A stretch of DNA of 24,230 nt, from positions 1 to 24,230 of IMG/VR virus record IMGVR_UViG_3300028597_000069. One strand, given 5' to 3'. Under the pieces are notes generated by a model that saw only the letters and a program-made list of their open reading frames with translations, did not search any database and was not told where the DNA came from. The position numbers were made by a program, and so were the translations under genes. Position 1 is the stretch's first letter; each line of letters begins with the position of its first letter. Shown one piece after another: positions 12,285 through 18,970 of this stretch. The stretch comes from a virus.

Positions 12285-12700
12285 GAGCGCACCTGCGCCT
12301 TCACCTTGATGGGGGCGCCGGCCAGCTTGAGCCGCTCCGTGCGCCAGACGATGGCCTTCTGCACGCCCACGCCCAGCCCGGTGCCGACCACCAGGGCGGA
12401 CAGGCTGAACGCGAACATCGGGTAGAGCAGGGACAGCGGGACACTGACCGTGCCGATGGTCCGCAGGGTCGCGTACACGTGCCGGGCGTACGGCCGTGGG
12501 GGCAGCGCGGTGTCCGGGACACAGAACTCCTTGGTGAGGATCGCACCGGAGAACCAGCGATAGGTGATGGTGACCGCACCGGGCAGGGCGCGGAAGCCCT
12601 TACGGACGCAGACGACCAGCAGGGCGAGTAGGCAGAGGGCCACGATGCCGAGGAACTCGAACAGCGCGGGTACGGCGGGCGCGACGCATGGCACGCACAT
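12281..12700 (-). CDS. Small membrane protein, Spd-like position
   Basis: A 139-residue protein from an ATG (12700-12698) overlapping the upstream stop by 1 nt (TGATG). Hydrophobic segments lie at about residues 9-33 and 84-115 with a soluble, Pro/Tyr-rich loop between (DTALPPRPYARHVY). The C terminus is basic. It sits immediately after a second small membrane protein and downstream of the TraB-like and DUF2637 genes, an arrangement like the spread (spd) genes of Streptomyces plasmids, which help plasmid DNA move between compartments of the recipient mycelium. No specific spd family can be named from sequence alone. Confidence 0.65.
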   Translation of the reverse strand: MCVPCVAPAVPALFEFLGIVALCLLALLVVCVRKGFRALPGAVTITYRWFSGAILTKEFCVPDTALPPRPYARHVYATLRTIGTVSVPLSLLYPMFAFSLSALVVGTGLGVGVQKAIVWRTERLKLAGAPIKVKAQVRS

Positions 12701-13018: not shown

Positions 13019-13639
13019 TTACATGCCTACAGCTTGTGCGAGGCGGTCGATCGACTTCCGGTCCACCCCGCACAGGTCGGCGATCTCGCGACGCGGCCGG
13101 CCCTCGGCCAGCAGGGTCCGCGCCTTGTCCTTGTCCCACGCCTTGCGCGATCTCGAGGACGGGACAGCCGGGACAACGGTCAGGGTCGGGACAGCCGGGA
13201 CAGGGACACTGGCCGGGACATCGGCCGGTGGGACAGTCGCAGGGACACGGACAGGGCGCGCCCGTGGGACAGGGACAGCCGGGACATCAGCGGGCCTGTC
13301 CCGGTGTCCCGCGTGGATGACCACGAACCCGAGCACCATCGCGAGGGGCATGGTCGCGGCCATCAGCCACCAGGGCATCTCAGTCTCGGCGTAGCTGGCC
13401 CCGTTGAAGGCGAGGCTCATGACGGCCCCGTACCCGGCGGCGATCCAGCCGGCGGCGGGCGCCCGCTTCAGGTTGCGCAGCCCGACGAAGATCAGCCCGT
13501 CCAGGCCGATCGGGTGCAGCGCGGCGATGAACCACGGGTTGCCCTGCGCCTCGGCCACGCTGTAGATGTGCGCCGCCGAGCAGGCGAACGCGGCCAGGGC
13601 CACCCCGCCGGCGACCAGCTCGTCCCGGTTCAGCTTCAT
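13019..13639 (-). CDS. DUF2637-type membrane protein with C-terminal HTH (SpdA-like)
   Basis: A 206-residue protein. The ATG (13639-13637) overlaps the translocase stop by 4 nt (ATGA). Residues about 9-115 contain four hydrophobic helices in the DUF2637 pattern (MKLNRDELVAGGVALAAFAC, HPIGLDGLIFVG). Residues 119-160 form a Val-Pro repeat linker, and residues about 168-206 form a helix-turn-helix (RREIADLCGVDRKSIDRLA). DUF2637 proteins of actinomycete plasmids and AICEs usually sit beside the TraB/FtsK translocase. A membrane protein with a DNA-binding tail could tether element DNA to the translocase at the membrane. The linker DNA contains the GGGACA array, and every codon before a Val-Pro pair ends in T, unlike the rest of the gene. 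Confidence 0.82.
   Translation of the reverse strand: MKLNRDELVAGGVALAAFACSAAHIYSVAEAQGNPWFIAALHPIGLDGLIFVGLRNLKRAPAAGWIAAGYGAVMSLAFNGASYAETEMPWWLMAATMPLAMVLGFVVIHAGHRDRPADVPAVPVPRARPVRVPATVPPADVPASVPVPAVPTLTVVPAVPSSRSRKAWDKDKARTLLAEGRPRREIADLCGVDRKSIDRLAQAVGM
13161..13310 (+). repeat. GGGACA array: 11 direct hexamers plus 2 inverted copies
   Basis: GGGACA starts on the plus strand at 13161, 13170, 13188, 13197, 13203, 13215, 13230, 13242, 13266, 13272 and 13281. Two inverted copies (TGTCCC) begin at 13297 and 13305. All eleven direct copies encode Val-Pro on the minus strand, but in each the preceding codon ends in T (GAT, GCT, CCT, CGT, ACT, AGT, GTT), which is rare in this high-GC genome and not required by the protein. 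The spacing varies in multiples of three. I interpret it as a DNA recognition array resembling TraB recognition sites or iterons; the function is inferred. Confidence 0.85.
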
Positions 13640-15402
13640 GCGGCGGGCTCCATCCACTCGTCGAGGTCCTGCTCGCGGTACAGCTTGGCGTTCTGTGCGC
13701 CCTCACCGACCGGGCGCGGGAACTCCGCGTCGCGGTCGCGGGCGGTGCGCAGCCGCAGCACCAGGCGCTGGGCGGCCATGTCGTCGTCCGGATACTGCAC
13801 CTGCGCGTAATCACGCAGGGTGATGTAGACGGGGGTGTCGTCGTCGCCTGCTGTAACAGGCTGCGGGCTGGTAAAAGGAATACCTTCGTGCTGTTGCATC
13901 AGCGTCCGCACGTCCAGCATCTGCTCACCCTGCGTAGCCCACTCGATGAGCCGGGCCGCGTGCCGCTTCAGGTCCGGGTAGGCGCCCTGAAACACCGTGG
14001 CGTGGCCGGCCACGGCGTAGCCGAACCGGCCCGGCTTGATGCTCATCGCCGGCTTCTTCGCACCTGGTCCCATCACCAGGCGCCACGCACCCACCGGCAG
14101 GCGGCCGGCCAGGGCGAACGCCCCGAAGTTGTTCCGGCTGCCGATGTCGGCCTTGGTGACCTCCTGCGCCGCAAGGATCACGTTGATGTTGAACGCGCGG
14201 CCCTGCGATGCCAGCCGGTCCAGCGCCGCGAGAGCCGGGGAGCGGTTCGGGGCGCCACGGGGGCGGGTCGCCGCCCAGTGTTCGCGCAGCAGGGTCTGCA
14301 GGCTGTTGCGCTCCTCGAGGAGAACCACGATCCGGGGGAACGCGGCGTCGCCGTCGGCCACCGCCACCCCGCCGCGGCGGCGCAGCTCCATGTCCAGCCA
14401 CAGCACCGTGTCGTGAACCATGGCGGGCTCGCGGCAGTACAGCGCCCGCGGCACCTGCGACAGCCACCGGTGGGACACGTACTTCGGGTCAAGGACAACC
14501 ACCCCGGCGCCGGCGCGCATGAACTGCGCCACGATCCAGGCCATCAGCTCGGACTTACCCGAGCCTGACCCGCCCCCGATGCCGATGTGCGGACTGTCCT
14601 CGCCGAGGTCCCAGGACACCGGGCCGTGCGCGGACTGTCCCAGGTAGGGCGTCTCACTGTCCCAGTGGGCCAGCATCGTGTCCCACGTGACCCGGTCCGG
14701 GGGCTGCGGCGGTGTCCACAACTCGACGTGCGGGGCGGCGCCCTCCATGTTCCACCGGGCGTCCAGGGCGTGATGGCCGAGGCGCTCGCGGACCGCGGTC
14801 AGCAGGTTGTCGCGGTCGTTGTCGTGTAGGGCGTGCTCGGTGGGTAGCCCGATGGTGCCGACGGCCAGGCGGTCGCGGCCGTGCACCATGCCCGGCGGGA
14901 TGTCCACGTAGATGCCGTCGCGGGTGCGCAGCGTCGCCCACGCGGCCCGGCGGATGGGCGCGAGCACCTGCCGCTCGTGGCGGTAGTTGCGCACGTAGCG
15001 CACGCCCTTGAACGCCCCGTACCCCGCGAGGGGCAGCCAGGCGAGGGTGGGGCCGATCGGGTCCATCCACCAGGGGTCGCTGATGTCGAGCTTCTCCGTG
15101 GCCCACACGGCGCCGGTGTAGGGCAGCAGCCCGAAAGCAGGCACCCGGGTAAGTAGCAGCCCACGCTTCCAGCCGGGCCAGTACTGGTACGGGGCGGTGT
15201 GCCCGGAGCGGGTGAAGCACTTGGTGCCCGCGCGCCAGAACGTCGCGTCGGTGCGCGCCGTGCCGTCCAGGGGGCGGCAGGTGGCGAACCGGTAGACGAA
15301 CCCCAGCACCGGGAGGCGCCCGAACAGCACCGGTATCGGATCCTCGGACCCGGCGCGCCAGTTGGTATTGGGGGTGTCGACGTCCAGGAACGAGCCGGTC
15401 AT
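13636..15402 (-). CDS. TraB/FtsK-type DNA translocase (TraSA-like)
   Basis: A 588-residue protein; the ATG (15402-15400) has a 4-nt ATGA overlap with the upstream stop. Residues about 80-140 hold two weakly hydrophobic segments that may contact the membrane. The FtsK/SpoIIIE motor domain has Walker A GGGSGSGKS (276-284), Walker B RIVVLLEERNS (357-367) and a sensor-like NINVILAAQE (405-414). The last roughly 65 residues (ITLRDYAQ ... LYREQDLDEWM) resemble an excisionase-type winged helix. In Streptomyces plasmids such a motor moves double-stranded plasmid DNA between hyphae after binding clt repeats. It is followed by DUF2637 and two Spd-like genes. An alternative is a phage-encoded DNA pump for segregation. 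Family secure, biological role inferred. Confidence 0.87.
   Translation of the reverse strand: MTGSFLDVDTPNTNWRAGSEDPIPVLFGRLPVLGFVYRFATCRPLDGTARTDATFWRAGTKCFTRSGHTAPYQYWPGWKRGLLLTRVPAFGLLPYTGAVWATEKLDISDPWWMDPIGPTLAWLPLAGYGAFKGVRYVRNYRHERQVLAPIRRAAWATLRTRDGIYVDIPPGMVHGRDRLAVGTIGLPTEHALHDNDRDNLLTAVRERLGHHALDARWNMEGAAPHVELWTPPQPPDRVTWDTMLAHWDSETPYLGQSAHGPVSWDLGEDSPHIGIGGGSGSGKSELMAWIVAQFMRAGAGVVVLDPKYVSHRWLSQVPRALYCREPAMVHDTVLWLDMELRRRGGVAVADGDAAFPRIVVLLEERNSLQTLLREHWAATRPRGAPNRSPALAALDRLASQGRAFNINVILAAQEVTKADIGSRNNFGAFALAGRLPVGAWRLVMGPGAKKPAMSIKPGRFGYAVAGHATVFQGAYPDLKRHAARLIEWATQGEQMLDVRTLMQQHEGIPFTSPQPVTAGDDDTPVYITLRDYAQVQYPDDDMAAQRLVLRLRTARDRDAEFPRPVGEGAQNAKLYREQDLDEWMEPAA
14636..14684 (-). 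repeat. Three phased GGGACA copies inside the translocase gene
   Basis: TGTCCC (GGGACA on the minus strand) occurs at 14636-14641, 14658-14663 and 14679-14684, spaced 22 and 21 bp, about two helical turns. They fall in two different codon frames (TGG GAC A, TGG GAC A, CTG GGA CA), so a protein repeat does not account for all three. Confidence 0.55.
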
Positions 15403-16969: not shown

Positions 16970-16999
16970 TGCTCTTTCCCCTCTTCCTCTCGCTGCGTA

Positions 17000-17024
17000 G
17001 GGGGGACAGGGGGGACGTCCCCCC
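17000..17024. repeat. GGGGGGAC repeats, group 1 (two direct, one inverted)
   Basis: GGGGGGAC at 17000-17007 and 17009-17016, and its complement GTCCCCCC at 17017-17024. The last two form a perfect 16-bp palindrome, GGGGGGACGTCCCCCC (17009-17024). Confidence 0.8.
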
Positions 17025-17032
17025 TCCGTTTC

Positions 17033-17063
17033 GACTCACGCTGAGAAAGCCTCTACGTGAGTC
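17033..17063. promoter_or_regulatory. 8-bp inverted repeat GACTCACG / CGTGAGTC
   Basis: GACTCACG (17033-17040) and CGTGAGTC (17056-17063) pair perfectly across a 15-nt spacer. On the minus strand they fall between the candidate promoter and the 16703-16969 gene, so they may be an operator or a hairpin in the leader. Confidence 0.5.
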
Positions 17064-17086
17064 ACCCCTCTTTACATTTACACTTA

Positions 17087-17115
17087 CCTATATTCCCTGG
17101 TCGGAGGCTTGTCGT
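17087..17115 (-). promoter_or_regulatory. Candidate promoter for the small-gene/translocase operon
   Basis: On the minus strand ACGACA (17115-17110), a 17-nt spacer and TATAGG (17092-17087). The -10 hexamer is the same as in the candidate late promoter. Sequence match only. Confidence 0.35.
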
Positions 17116-17171
17116 TGATCTCCGGCCGTGTTAGGGAACCCTTACCGTTTTTCTCCCCGTGTCCGGGAGGT

Positions 17172-17197
17172 GGGGGGACATGTCCCCCCGTCCCCCC
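17172..17197. repeat. GGGGGGAC repeats, group 2 (18-bp perfect palindrome plus one copy)
   Basis: GGGGGGACATGTCCCCCC is a perfect 18-bp palindrome at 17172-17189, followed by another GTCCCCCC at 17190-17197. It begins 2 nt after the ATPase stop (17199) on the minus strand, so it could also act as a hairpin. Each outer copy contains the GGGACA hexamer of the 13161 array. Confidence 0.8.
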
Positions 17198-17198
17198 G

Positions 17199-18629
17199 TC
17201 ACGCTGGGCGACTTGTGCCCGGTCGCAAGATCCTGTTCTCGGGGTCCGCGTCCACCCACCCGACCGTGCGGGCATGGGCAAGAGCGGCATCGAAGAGACG
17301 CTTGTCCCGGCCGATGTTCTTCTTGTACGGCGCCCGGATGACCTCGCCCTCCTCGGCGACCTTGTGGGCGATGCACCGGGCCACCCGCTCGATGTCCGAG
17401 GACACCTCGAGCTGCACCAGCTGCACCGCGCGCGCCTCGTCGGTGCGCTTCTCCAACCGCCGGTCCTCGTCCTCGCGCGCCTTGCGGCTGCGGAACTCCA
17501 GCAGGCTGTCGCGGATCGCCGACGAGGTGGCCCACAGCATCGCGGCCAGGCCCCAGTCCTCGCGGGTCACGGCCAGCCGCCCGTCGATCAGGCAGAGCAG
17601 GGCGGCCAGCTTGCAGCGCATCAGCGGCTCGTGCGAGTCCAGTTCGTTGACCTGCACGGTGCCGTGGTGCTTGTCGACGGTGTGCTGCCGTAGCGAGCGG
17701 CGGATCTCCGCGGGGAAGCTGATGACACCCGACTCGGGCATGGCCGGCAGGTCGATCTGGCCGGGCCACGCGTAGTCGTCCTCGGGCATCTCGGTGTCCT
17801 GCGCGCCGAACCAGAGCAGCCGTTGCGGGGTGCCGGGGCCGATGTCGGACAGGATCTCCACGGCCACGTCCGGCTGGAACCCGATCAGCACGCCCATGGA
17901 GTAGGTCCCACCCTTGACCAGCCGGGTGGTCTCGTCGCGGGCGTTGGCCTGCCCCAGGGTGACCCCGTTCCACGCCGACCGGATGGCAGGGCCGAGAGTC
18001 GCCCCCTGCCGCTCCTTCATCAGCTTGTTGATGGTCTCGCCCTCGTCGACGTAGAAGAACGCGTTGTGCCGCACCTGCATCCGCACCCGCTCCTCGACGG
18101 GCTCGCCCTTGCGGTTGATCTCCCCGGTGTCGCGGACCTTGGTGCCCATGTAGACCTCGGCCAGGCCCTCGCCGGTGCCGATGCCGACGCCGTCCTTGAA
18201 CACGGTCGGGTCCTGCAGGTGCTCGGGCACCTCGATCAGTTGCTCGGCGGTGGCCGCGGCCGCGGACTTGCCGATGCCGGACGGGGCGAGCAGGCAGGCG
18301 AACAGGTTGCACGAGCCGTTCGGTCCGCGACCGGAGTCGAACTTCAGCCCGTGCGGGACCATCGCGGCGACCCGGGTCAGCACCGCGGCGAACACCGCGT
18401 CGGGGTGCGTCTGGGTGGCCCAGGCGGCCTGACGGATCCGCTTGAACACCTCGCGGGTGTCCCAGAACTGCACGGGCAGCCGGCGGATGGCCACTGCGCG
18501 CGCCTCGGGTGAGGCGACGTGCTCGGGCTCGGCGGTGATCTCCGGACCGACGTCGAGCAGGTCGCCGTTCTCGTCGGTCAGCCCGTCCCAGTCGTTGCCG
18601 TCCGGAACGTGCGCGTCTTCGCGGGTCAC
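17199..18629 (-). CDS. P-loop ATPase, probable replication protein (DUF3987-like helicase)
   Basis: A 476-residue protein from a GTG (18629-18627) overlapping the previous stop by 4 nt (GTGA). Walker A is APSGIGKS (115-122); Walker B is NAFFYVDEGETI (189-200), with DE at 195-196. Downstream motifs include TYSMGVLIGFQPDVAVEIL and a C-terminal winged-helix-like part. It resembles DUF3987/primase-associated helicases found on actinomycete plasmids, AICEs and phages. It has no primase domain and no second helicase gene is seen, so host primase would be needed. The adjacent repeat/AT-rich region supports a replication initiation or helicase role. The ATPase is certain; the exact family and role are inferred. 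Confidence 0.75.
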   Translation of the reverse strand: MTREDAHVPDGNDWDGLTDENGDLLDVGPEITAEPEHVASPEARAVAIRRLPVQFWDTREVFKRIRQAAWATQTHPDAVFAAVLTRVAAMVPHGLKFDSGRGPNGSCNLFACLLAPSGIGKSAAAATAEQLIEVPEHLQDPTVFKDGVGIGTGEGLAEVYMGTKVRDTGEINRKGEPVEERVRMQVRHNAFFYVDEGETINKLMKERQGATLGPAIRSAWNGVTLGQANARDETTRLVKGGTYSMGVLIGFQPDVAVEILSDIGPGTPQRLLWFGAQDTEMPEDDYAWPGQIDLPAMPESGVISFPAEIRRSLRQHTVDKHHGTVQVNELDSHEPLMRCKLAALLCLIDGRLAVTREDWGLAAMLWATSSAIRDSLLEFRSRKAREDEDRRLEKRTDEARAVQLVQLEVSSDIERVARCIAHKVAEEGEVIRAPYKKNIGRDKRLFDAALAHARTVGWVDADPENRILRPGTSRPA

Positions 18630-18970
18630 GCTGCCACCTCTTCGTTCATGTAGGTCGAGGGGAGCGGCAGCCCACCCTGGAAGTCGCTCACCCGGTCGAG
18701 GCGCGCCACGGCGTCGGCCTTGGCCCGGTAGGCGGCCTGGTCGTACCAGCGGCCCATGACCTGAACGGACGGCCGGGCCTGCAGCGCGGTCCATTCGTCG
18801 CGCTCTTCGGCCTCGCGCGCCTCGTAGCCCCAGCGCTGCGCGGTGCCCATCAGGTAGGCCACCTGATCGCGGGTGAACGTCGCGGCGGGATCGGCCAGCA
18901 TCGACACCAGCCGGTCCGTGGCGGTTCCCGTGGAGGCGGGAAGGGAGGTAGAATCAGTGGTGGGCGGCAT
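18626..18970 (-). CDS. Small unknown helical protein before the ATPase
   Basis: A 114-residue protein from an ATG (18970-18968), with GAGG about 9 nt upstream, ending in a 4-nt overlap with the ATPase start. A Ser/Thr-rich N terminus (about 1-20) is followed by helical sequence (FTRDQVAYLMGTAQRWGYEA) and a segment rich in Arg/Ala/Tyr (WYDQAAYRAKADAVARLD). It has no recognised family. Coupling to the ATPase suggests it assists it, for example as a loader or DNA-binding partner, but this is only inferred from arrangement. Confidence 0.65.
   Translation of the reverse strand: MPPTTDSTSLPASTGTATDRLVSMLADPAATFTRDQVAYLMGTAQRWGYEAREAEERDEWTALQARPSVQVMGRWYDQAAYRAKADAVARLDRVSDFQGGLPLPSTYMNEEVAA

Follow-up and report, generated by a model that had tools for sequence, protein, structure and literature searches.

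The linker-coding part of a DUF2637 gene contains a dense run of the hexamer GGGACA, all copies pointing the same way, in a virus record whose phage gene affinities are actinobacterial (the window, the whole stretch of 24,230 bases that was analyzed). This raises the questions of whether the DNA word is selected in its own right and, if so, which protein reads it. The large terminase of the window shares ~60% identity with its counterpart in Thermobifida phage P1312 and 63% with the closest terminase, at locus L483, and the DUF3987 primase-helicase is related to the primase/polymerases of Gordonia and Mycobacterium phages. The features that the argument uses are these.

13019..13657, minus strand: DUF2637 gene (PF10935), 212 aa, with a membrane part, an array-bearing linker and a C-terminal HTH
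13301..13627, minus strand: four predicted membrane-length helices, residues 11-119 (single-sequence AlphaFold2, low confidence, pLDDT 44-68)
13145..13300, minus strand: Val-Pro linker (disordered; residues 120-171), encoded by the array-bearing DNA
13028..13132, minus strand: three-helix HTH, residues 176-210 (model and Pfam HTH), proposed reader of the array
13161..13286, plus strand: array of eleven GGGACA copies, all in the same direction and in one codon phase, reading TGTCCC on the coding strand, 126 bp
13297..13310, minus strand: two inverted GGGACA adjoining the array (13297-13302 and 13305-13310), in different codon phases
13132..13137, minus strand: additional inverted GGGACA where the HTH-coding part begins
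13636..15402, minus strand: HerA/FtsK-like (TraB-like) motor gene (DUF87), proposed partner, lying directly upstream of DUF2637
16999..17200, no strand assigned: putative replication origin, GGGAC(A) sites around an AT-rich stretch at the 3' end of the DUF3987 gene
17199..18794, minus strand: DUF3987 primase-helicase gene, candidate initiator and rival candidate reader of the array

The GGGACA array and selection on the DNA word

The gene product matches PF10935 over residues 18-119 (E 2e-9; 37.9 bits against a cut-off of 22.8), and thus belongs to the DUF2637 family. Its HTH is modelled confidently by single-sequence AlphaFold2 (pLDDT 92-94 across residues 181-210) and has weak Pfam matches to HTH_28/HTH_7/HTH_23 (E 0.013-0.02). 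Direct homologues of P0001 were not found in plasmids, phages, genomes or viral contigs by tblastn or pattern scan.

On the plus strand, GGGACA starts at 13161, 13170, 13188, 13197, 13203, 13215, 13230, 13242, 13266, 13272 and 13281, and on the coding (minus) strand all eleven copies are TGTCCC in identical phase, read as xxT-GTC-CCn. Recounting the positions reproduced exactly the eleven one-direction copies in 126 bp and the inverted copies described in the initial annotation, together with its list of T-ending codons (GAT, GCT, CCT, CGT, ACT, GAT, AGT, CCT, GCT, GTT and GCT); such a codon precedes each Val-Pro in the linker, with no exceptions. The full window has 31 GGGACA where 19 are expected, with a maximum of 27 over 100 shuffles. 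Two groups of three copies each, too small to interpret, are also present at 14636-14684, within the motor gene, and at 12430-12521, in a gene downstream of DUF2637.

Permuting synonymous codons within the DUF2637 gene yields a mean of 1.4 GGGACA and a maximum of 7, with 11 copies reached in 0 of 20,000 permutations; resampling codons by window usage gives a mean of 0.68 and a maximum of 4, and 0 of 4,000 samples reach 11. T-ending codons are as rare as had been claimed, making up 6.1% of codons in the window genes, and the probability that all 11 codons before Val-Pro end in T is 8e-14. When the repeats are aligned, all six positions of the hexamer are invariant (2.0 bits) and each flanking column has at most 1.15 bits; because the hexamer is fixed while its flanks vary, recent tandem duplication is not the explanation. 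Nor does Val-Pro alone force GGGACA, since homologues mostly write Val-Pro without the preceding T: among 79 other DUF2637 homologues, T precedes Val-Pro in 18/136 instances and GTC is used in 51/136. The GGGACA word in the linker is under DNA-level selection, as the initial annotation had claimed and as the shuffles and the T-codon probability bear out. That annotation had also held that Val-Pro without the T in homologues would speak against selection; the T is literally missing from most of them, but the cause is that they use other words (see below), not that the word is unselected.

It is thus extremely improbable that the array is a by-product of a Val-Pro protein repeat combined with local codon bias or recent duplication, and the two statistics above exclude it. 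Val-Pro-rich linkers are known in further DUF2637 proteins, and the arrays at L527 and L577, which we set aside, are plain single-frame tandem repeats, but a by-product accounts poorly for the invariant hexamer, for the scarcity of the T elsewhere, for the inverted copies in the window, or for the multi-frame arrays of relatives. Separately, phage proteins at L151 and L206 have long VxDSVxDS-type repeats that also yield dense GGGACA, probably through protein-level repetition.

The neighboring motor and the replication origin as candidate readers

The DUF2637 gene lies immediately 3' of the TraB-like motor gene, as first described, and overlaps its 3' end; the motor matches DUF87 (E 2e-6) and an FtsK/SpoIIIE-like PHROG (E 1e-8). 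The same two genes are neighbors in L483, where the motor is 682 aa long with a winged-helix-like C-terminus, and on complete 7-kb Streptomyces plasmids. This arrangement, with the strong orientation of the array, is consistent with a loading site for the adjacent HerA/FtsK-like translocase, analogous to clt/TRS or KOPS. The clt/TRS sites of TraB/TraA translocases (pSVH1, pIJ101 and pWTY27) are short oriented repeats (PMC4170104, PMC3583192), and the pWTY27 clt consists of TraA-bound short direct repeats with a 16 bp overlap with traA (PMC3583192). The window resembles these systems in having oriented repeats beside or overlapping an FtsK-like motor gene with membrane partner proteins close by; it differs in that the array sits in the partner gene and that linker words of this type do not track the motor. 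At four Streptomyces loci with near-identical TraB motors (scores of 231-450 over the C-terminal 90 aa), the linker word is GGGTAC in L692 and GGTGAC in L651, and there is none in L699 and L702. Moreover, the motor of phage G001 (locus L004) is 59% identical to that of the window, yet there is no array near it, the sole strong array of that phage being at the 3' end of a primase gene. In these comparisons the word does not follow the DNA-binding domain of the motor. A weaker argument, as the record may be incomplete, comes from L437, where a linker array is present yet FtsK or DUF87 matches are absent from the 34-kb record. The proposal in the initial annotation that the array may be the translocase loading site is not supported as worded by these comparisons, and GGGACA as a TraB site was dropped as the leading idea; the motor is probably not the reader, and we regard a loading site as unlikely.

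A second candidate is the replication initiator. In 47 of 51 selected viral loci, a helicase gene of AAA_25 or VapE type carries a two-orientation GGGACA array at its 3' end, and among 79 VapE homologues chosen regardless of arrays, at least four copies lie downstream in 27, as against none of the 79 in the upstream control. Raw array counts are lower bounds both for GGGACA and for a control word, CCCTGT, hence uninformative, and orientation was used instead: among the matches listed, arrays have both orientations in 63/120 cases for GGGACA versus 5/118 for CCCTGT. GGGACA-type arrays look like a very common family of phage-origin iterons, and would provide a simple handle for phage-origin prediction. 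Iteron origins 3' of primase/helicase genes include further the SaPI rep-ori and the phage P4 ori/crr.

The window helicase gene itself ends at such a region. It is arranged as GGGGGACAGGGGGGACGTCCCCCC, then an AT-rich stretch, then GGGGGGACATGTCCCCCCGTCCCCCC, with GGGAC(A) sites in both orientations at 17003, 17012, 17017, 17175, 17182 and 17190. Iterons occur at the corresponding place in 17 helicase relatives (36-41% identity) and in the Nonomuraea phage-plasmid L432, mostly as two sets flanking an AT-rich tract, their words including GGGGGGACA, GGTGGACA and TATGGACA; because of this positional match, 16999-17200 is very probably the phage origin.

It is because GGGACA is so widespread at helicase 3' ends that the linker copies were first suspected to be iterons for the initiator. 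The array would then be a second iteron cluster for the DUF3987 primase-helicase or a partner, with the main origin at 16999-17200, comparable to the phage P4 cis replication region or to incompatibility/handcuffing iterons. Consistent with this, the linker word is the core, GGGAC(A), of the phage's own putative origin, about nine relatives of the window helicase use GGGGGGACA as their origin word, and in L483 the helicase end is bare of iterons, the linker array being the only array in the record. Nonetheless, linker and origin words differ in both comparable phages: L437, whose helicase is of the same family and whose genes are similarly ordered, has GGGGGGACA at its origin and CGGAAC in its linker (three frames, both orientations), and L689 has GGGGGGACA and GGTGACC, respectively. 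A second cluster of the origin word was not found in the other helicase relatives, and GGGACAcc linker arrays also occur on 7-kb plasmids, one of which has an annotated 'protein rep'. The window array shares with iteron origins the clustering of short repeats, but lies ~4 kb from the helicase gene and inside a coding linker. Since linker and origin words differ in L437 and L689, the origin reader is probably not the reader of the linker array, and the iteron explanation, favored for a time, was demoted; it is improbable, and still the main rival to the explanation that we prefer below. Within this phage, where the linker word coincides with the putative origin core, one reader may be shared by both.

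Other arrays also lie at helicase or primase 3' ends. TGTCCC/GGGACA arrays adjoin AAA_25/RepA-like, VapE-like and some DUF927 genes in many unrelated phages (L005-L232 and L353-L431), and related words (GTCCCA, GTCCTA and CTGTCC) are present at other such ends. The G001 array (in the record of L004) comprises fifteen ATGCAG in both orientations at 32098-32403, where a primase-like gene encoding 750 aa has its 3' end. The repAB iteron of pWTY27 is GTGGGAAC/TTCCCAC (PMC3583192).

Linker words and C-terminal HTHs among DUF2637 relatives

Arrays recur in the linkers of DUF2637 relatives. We surveyed 74 homologues from one subfamily, taking the region between the membrane part and the C-terminal HTH, and found multi-frame hexamer arrays in 23 of the 74 linkers compared with 15 of 1,423 control windows taken at those loci (odds ratio 42, p 2e-22); the remaining 51 homologues are without an array by this multi-frame test. 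These figures supersede a first survey in which orientation was handled less carefully (8/127 versus 7/1077). The words of relatives occur in both orientations and in more than one frame (two or three), for example GGGGACC in L672, CGGAAC in L437 and TGAACA in L483, the last with 27 copies in two frames. In the window, too, a selected hexamer array separates the membrane part from the HTH, with its 11 copies in a single phase and the inverted copies in others. The DUF2637 linker arrays apparently form a wider pattern that is undescribed so far; the papers searched contain nothing relevant on GGGACA arrays and no account of this pattern, and a single one of them mentions DUF2637.

The words differ from element to element, and they covary with the HTH. 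For 19 array-bearing genes we compared the 6-mer content of the whole linker, without picking words and with the HTH-coding part excluded. The mean cosine is 0.51 for HTH-similar pairs versus 0.02 for dissimilar pairs, and 0.567 versus 0.021 at matched similarity of the membrane part, with a permutation p of 5e-5, likewise on residuals after removal of the membrane-part trend, although adjacent linker and HTH sequences inherited as a block may mimic such covariation for close pairs. This test replaced a rank Mantel test on hand-picked words, in which the association was weak (r 0.15, p 0.04). Specific pairings include CGGAAC with the HTH TGTAIGxRLGxSDxYGRRVRRAAL (L437, L650 and L720), CGTCGACG with ASESTARTARGRVK (L697, L698, L709 and L715), and CCGGACC with ITRTQLRxIMRARGIPLGNEHIGPVL, a diverged version of which accompanies GGGGACC in L672. 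An exception is provided by L651, which has GGTGACC in common with L673 and L689 but no HTH similarity to them.

The window fits into this pattern through a looser motif. When ~80 linkers are ranked by G[AG]ACA, the top ones are those of the window, L483, L735, L683, L734 (whose linker word is GGGACACC), L733, L682 and L687; two complete 7-kb plasmids, both with GGGACAcc, are among them. All eight genes encode a homeodomain-like HTH of REIA/REAA type, with Pfam support for four; the motif was picked after some of these loci had been seen, so that the new ones are L682, L683 and L687, with L682 and L683 on one contig. The window HTH is only weakly similar to those of L733/L734 (BLOSUM62 score 16), with scores of 26 for L735 and 34 for L483. 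As judged from these sequence comparisons, the linker word varies with the C-terminal HTH and not with the membrane part, with the motor (L692, L651, L699 and L702) or with the origin (L437 and L689).

A DUF2637 protein as proposed reader of its own gene

The explanation that we favor, with a probability of roughly 0.55, is that the array comprises binding sites for the product of the DUF2637 gene itself and acts as a membrane tether or loading pad. The linker would be used twice, as a flexible Val-Pro tether in the protein and as an oriented GGGACA array in the DNA, whose reader would be the C-terminal HTH of that protein. With the four N-terminal helices anchoring the protein in the membrane, and several C-terminal HTHs bound to the clustered sites, phage or prophage DNA could be held at the membrane beside the HerA/FtsK-like motor, perhaps for segregation, spreading or loading. 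Site and reader would travel together because both are one gene. More tentatively, DUF2637 genes may constitute a widespread self-addressed class in actinobacterial phages, plasmids and integrated elements, in which word and HTH co-evolve and each element would have a private membrane landing pad that is inseparable from its reader.

The window array is best placed with cis sites located within the very gene that encodes their presumed reader, rather than with demonstrated TraB loading sites. A precedent is SpdA2 of the Streptomyces plasmid pIJ101, which binds a palindrome (sps) within its own coding region and affects plasmid stability (PMC4170104). Both are cases of a small mobile-element protein with a site in its own gene, although for the window it is the site in the gene that is observed and the reader that is proposed. 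On the other hand, sps is one palindrome whereas the window has an array of direct hexamers, nor is SpdA2 said to be a membrane protein of the DUF2637 family. The spread protein SpdB2 of pSVH1 is an integral membrane protein that binds dsDNA, reportedly non-specifically, and interacts with TraB (cited in PMC4170104). It may be likened to the predicted DUF2637 membrane protein as a membrane protein encoded with transfer genes, but differs in the non-specific DNA binding reported for it.

If our explanation is correct, a large uncharacterized family of actinobacterial mobile-element membrane proteins gains a testable function, namely to tether its own DNA to the membrane in a sequence-specific manner, and many natural pairs of protein and DNA specificity become available, each within one gene. 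It would also be an unusual case of one sequence selected both as a protein linker and as a DNA address, and would account for repetitive linkers in DUF2637 proteins that might otherwise be taken for low-complexity sequence.

A different layout is seen in the elements at L652-L680 (e.g., L656, 4460-4820), which have an LTRDLLRxAVKDKGL-type HTH. There the linker is without an array, and the space separating the DUF2637 gene from an upstream ORF, which appears by eye to be ATP-binding, is filled by an ACGGCA/AAGACG array.
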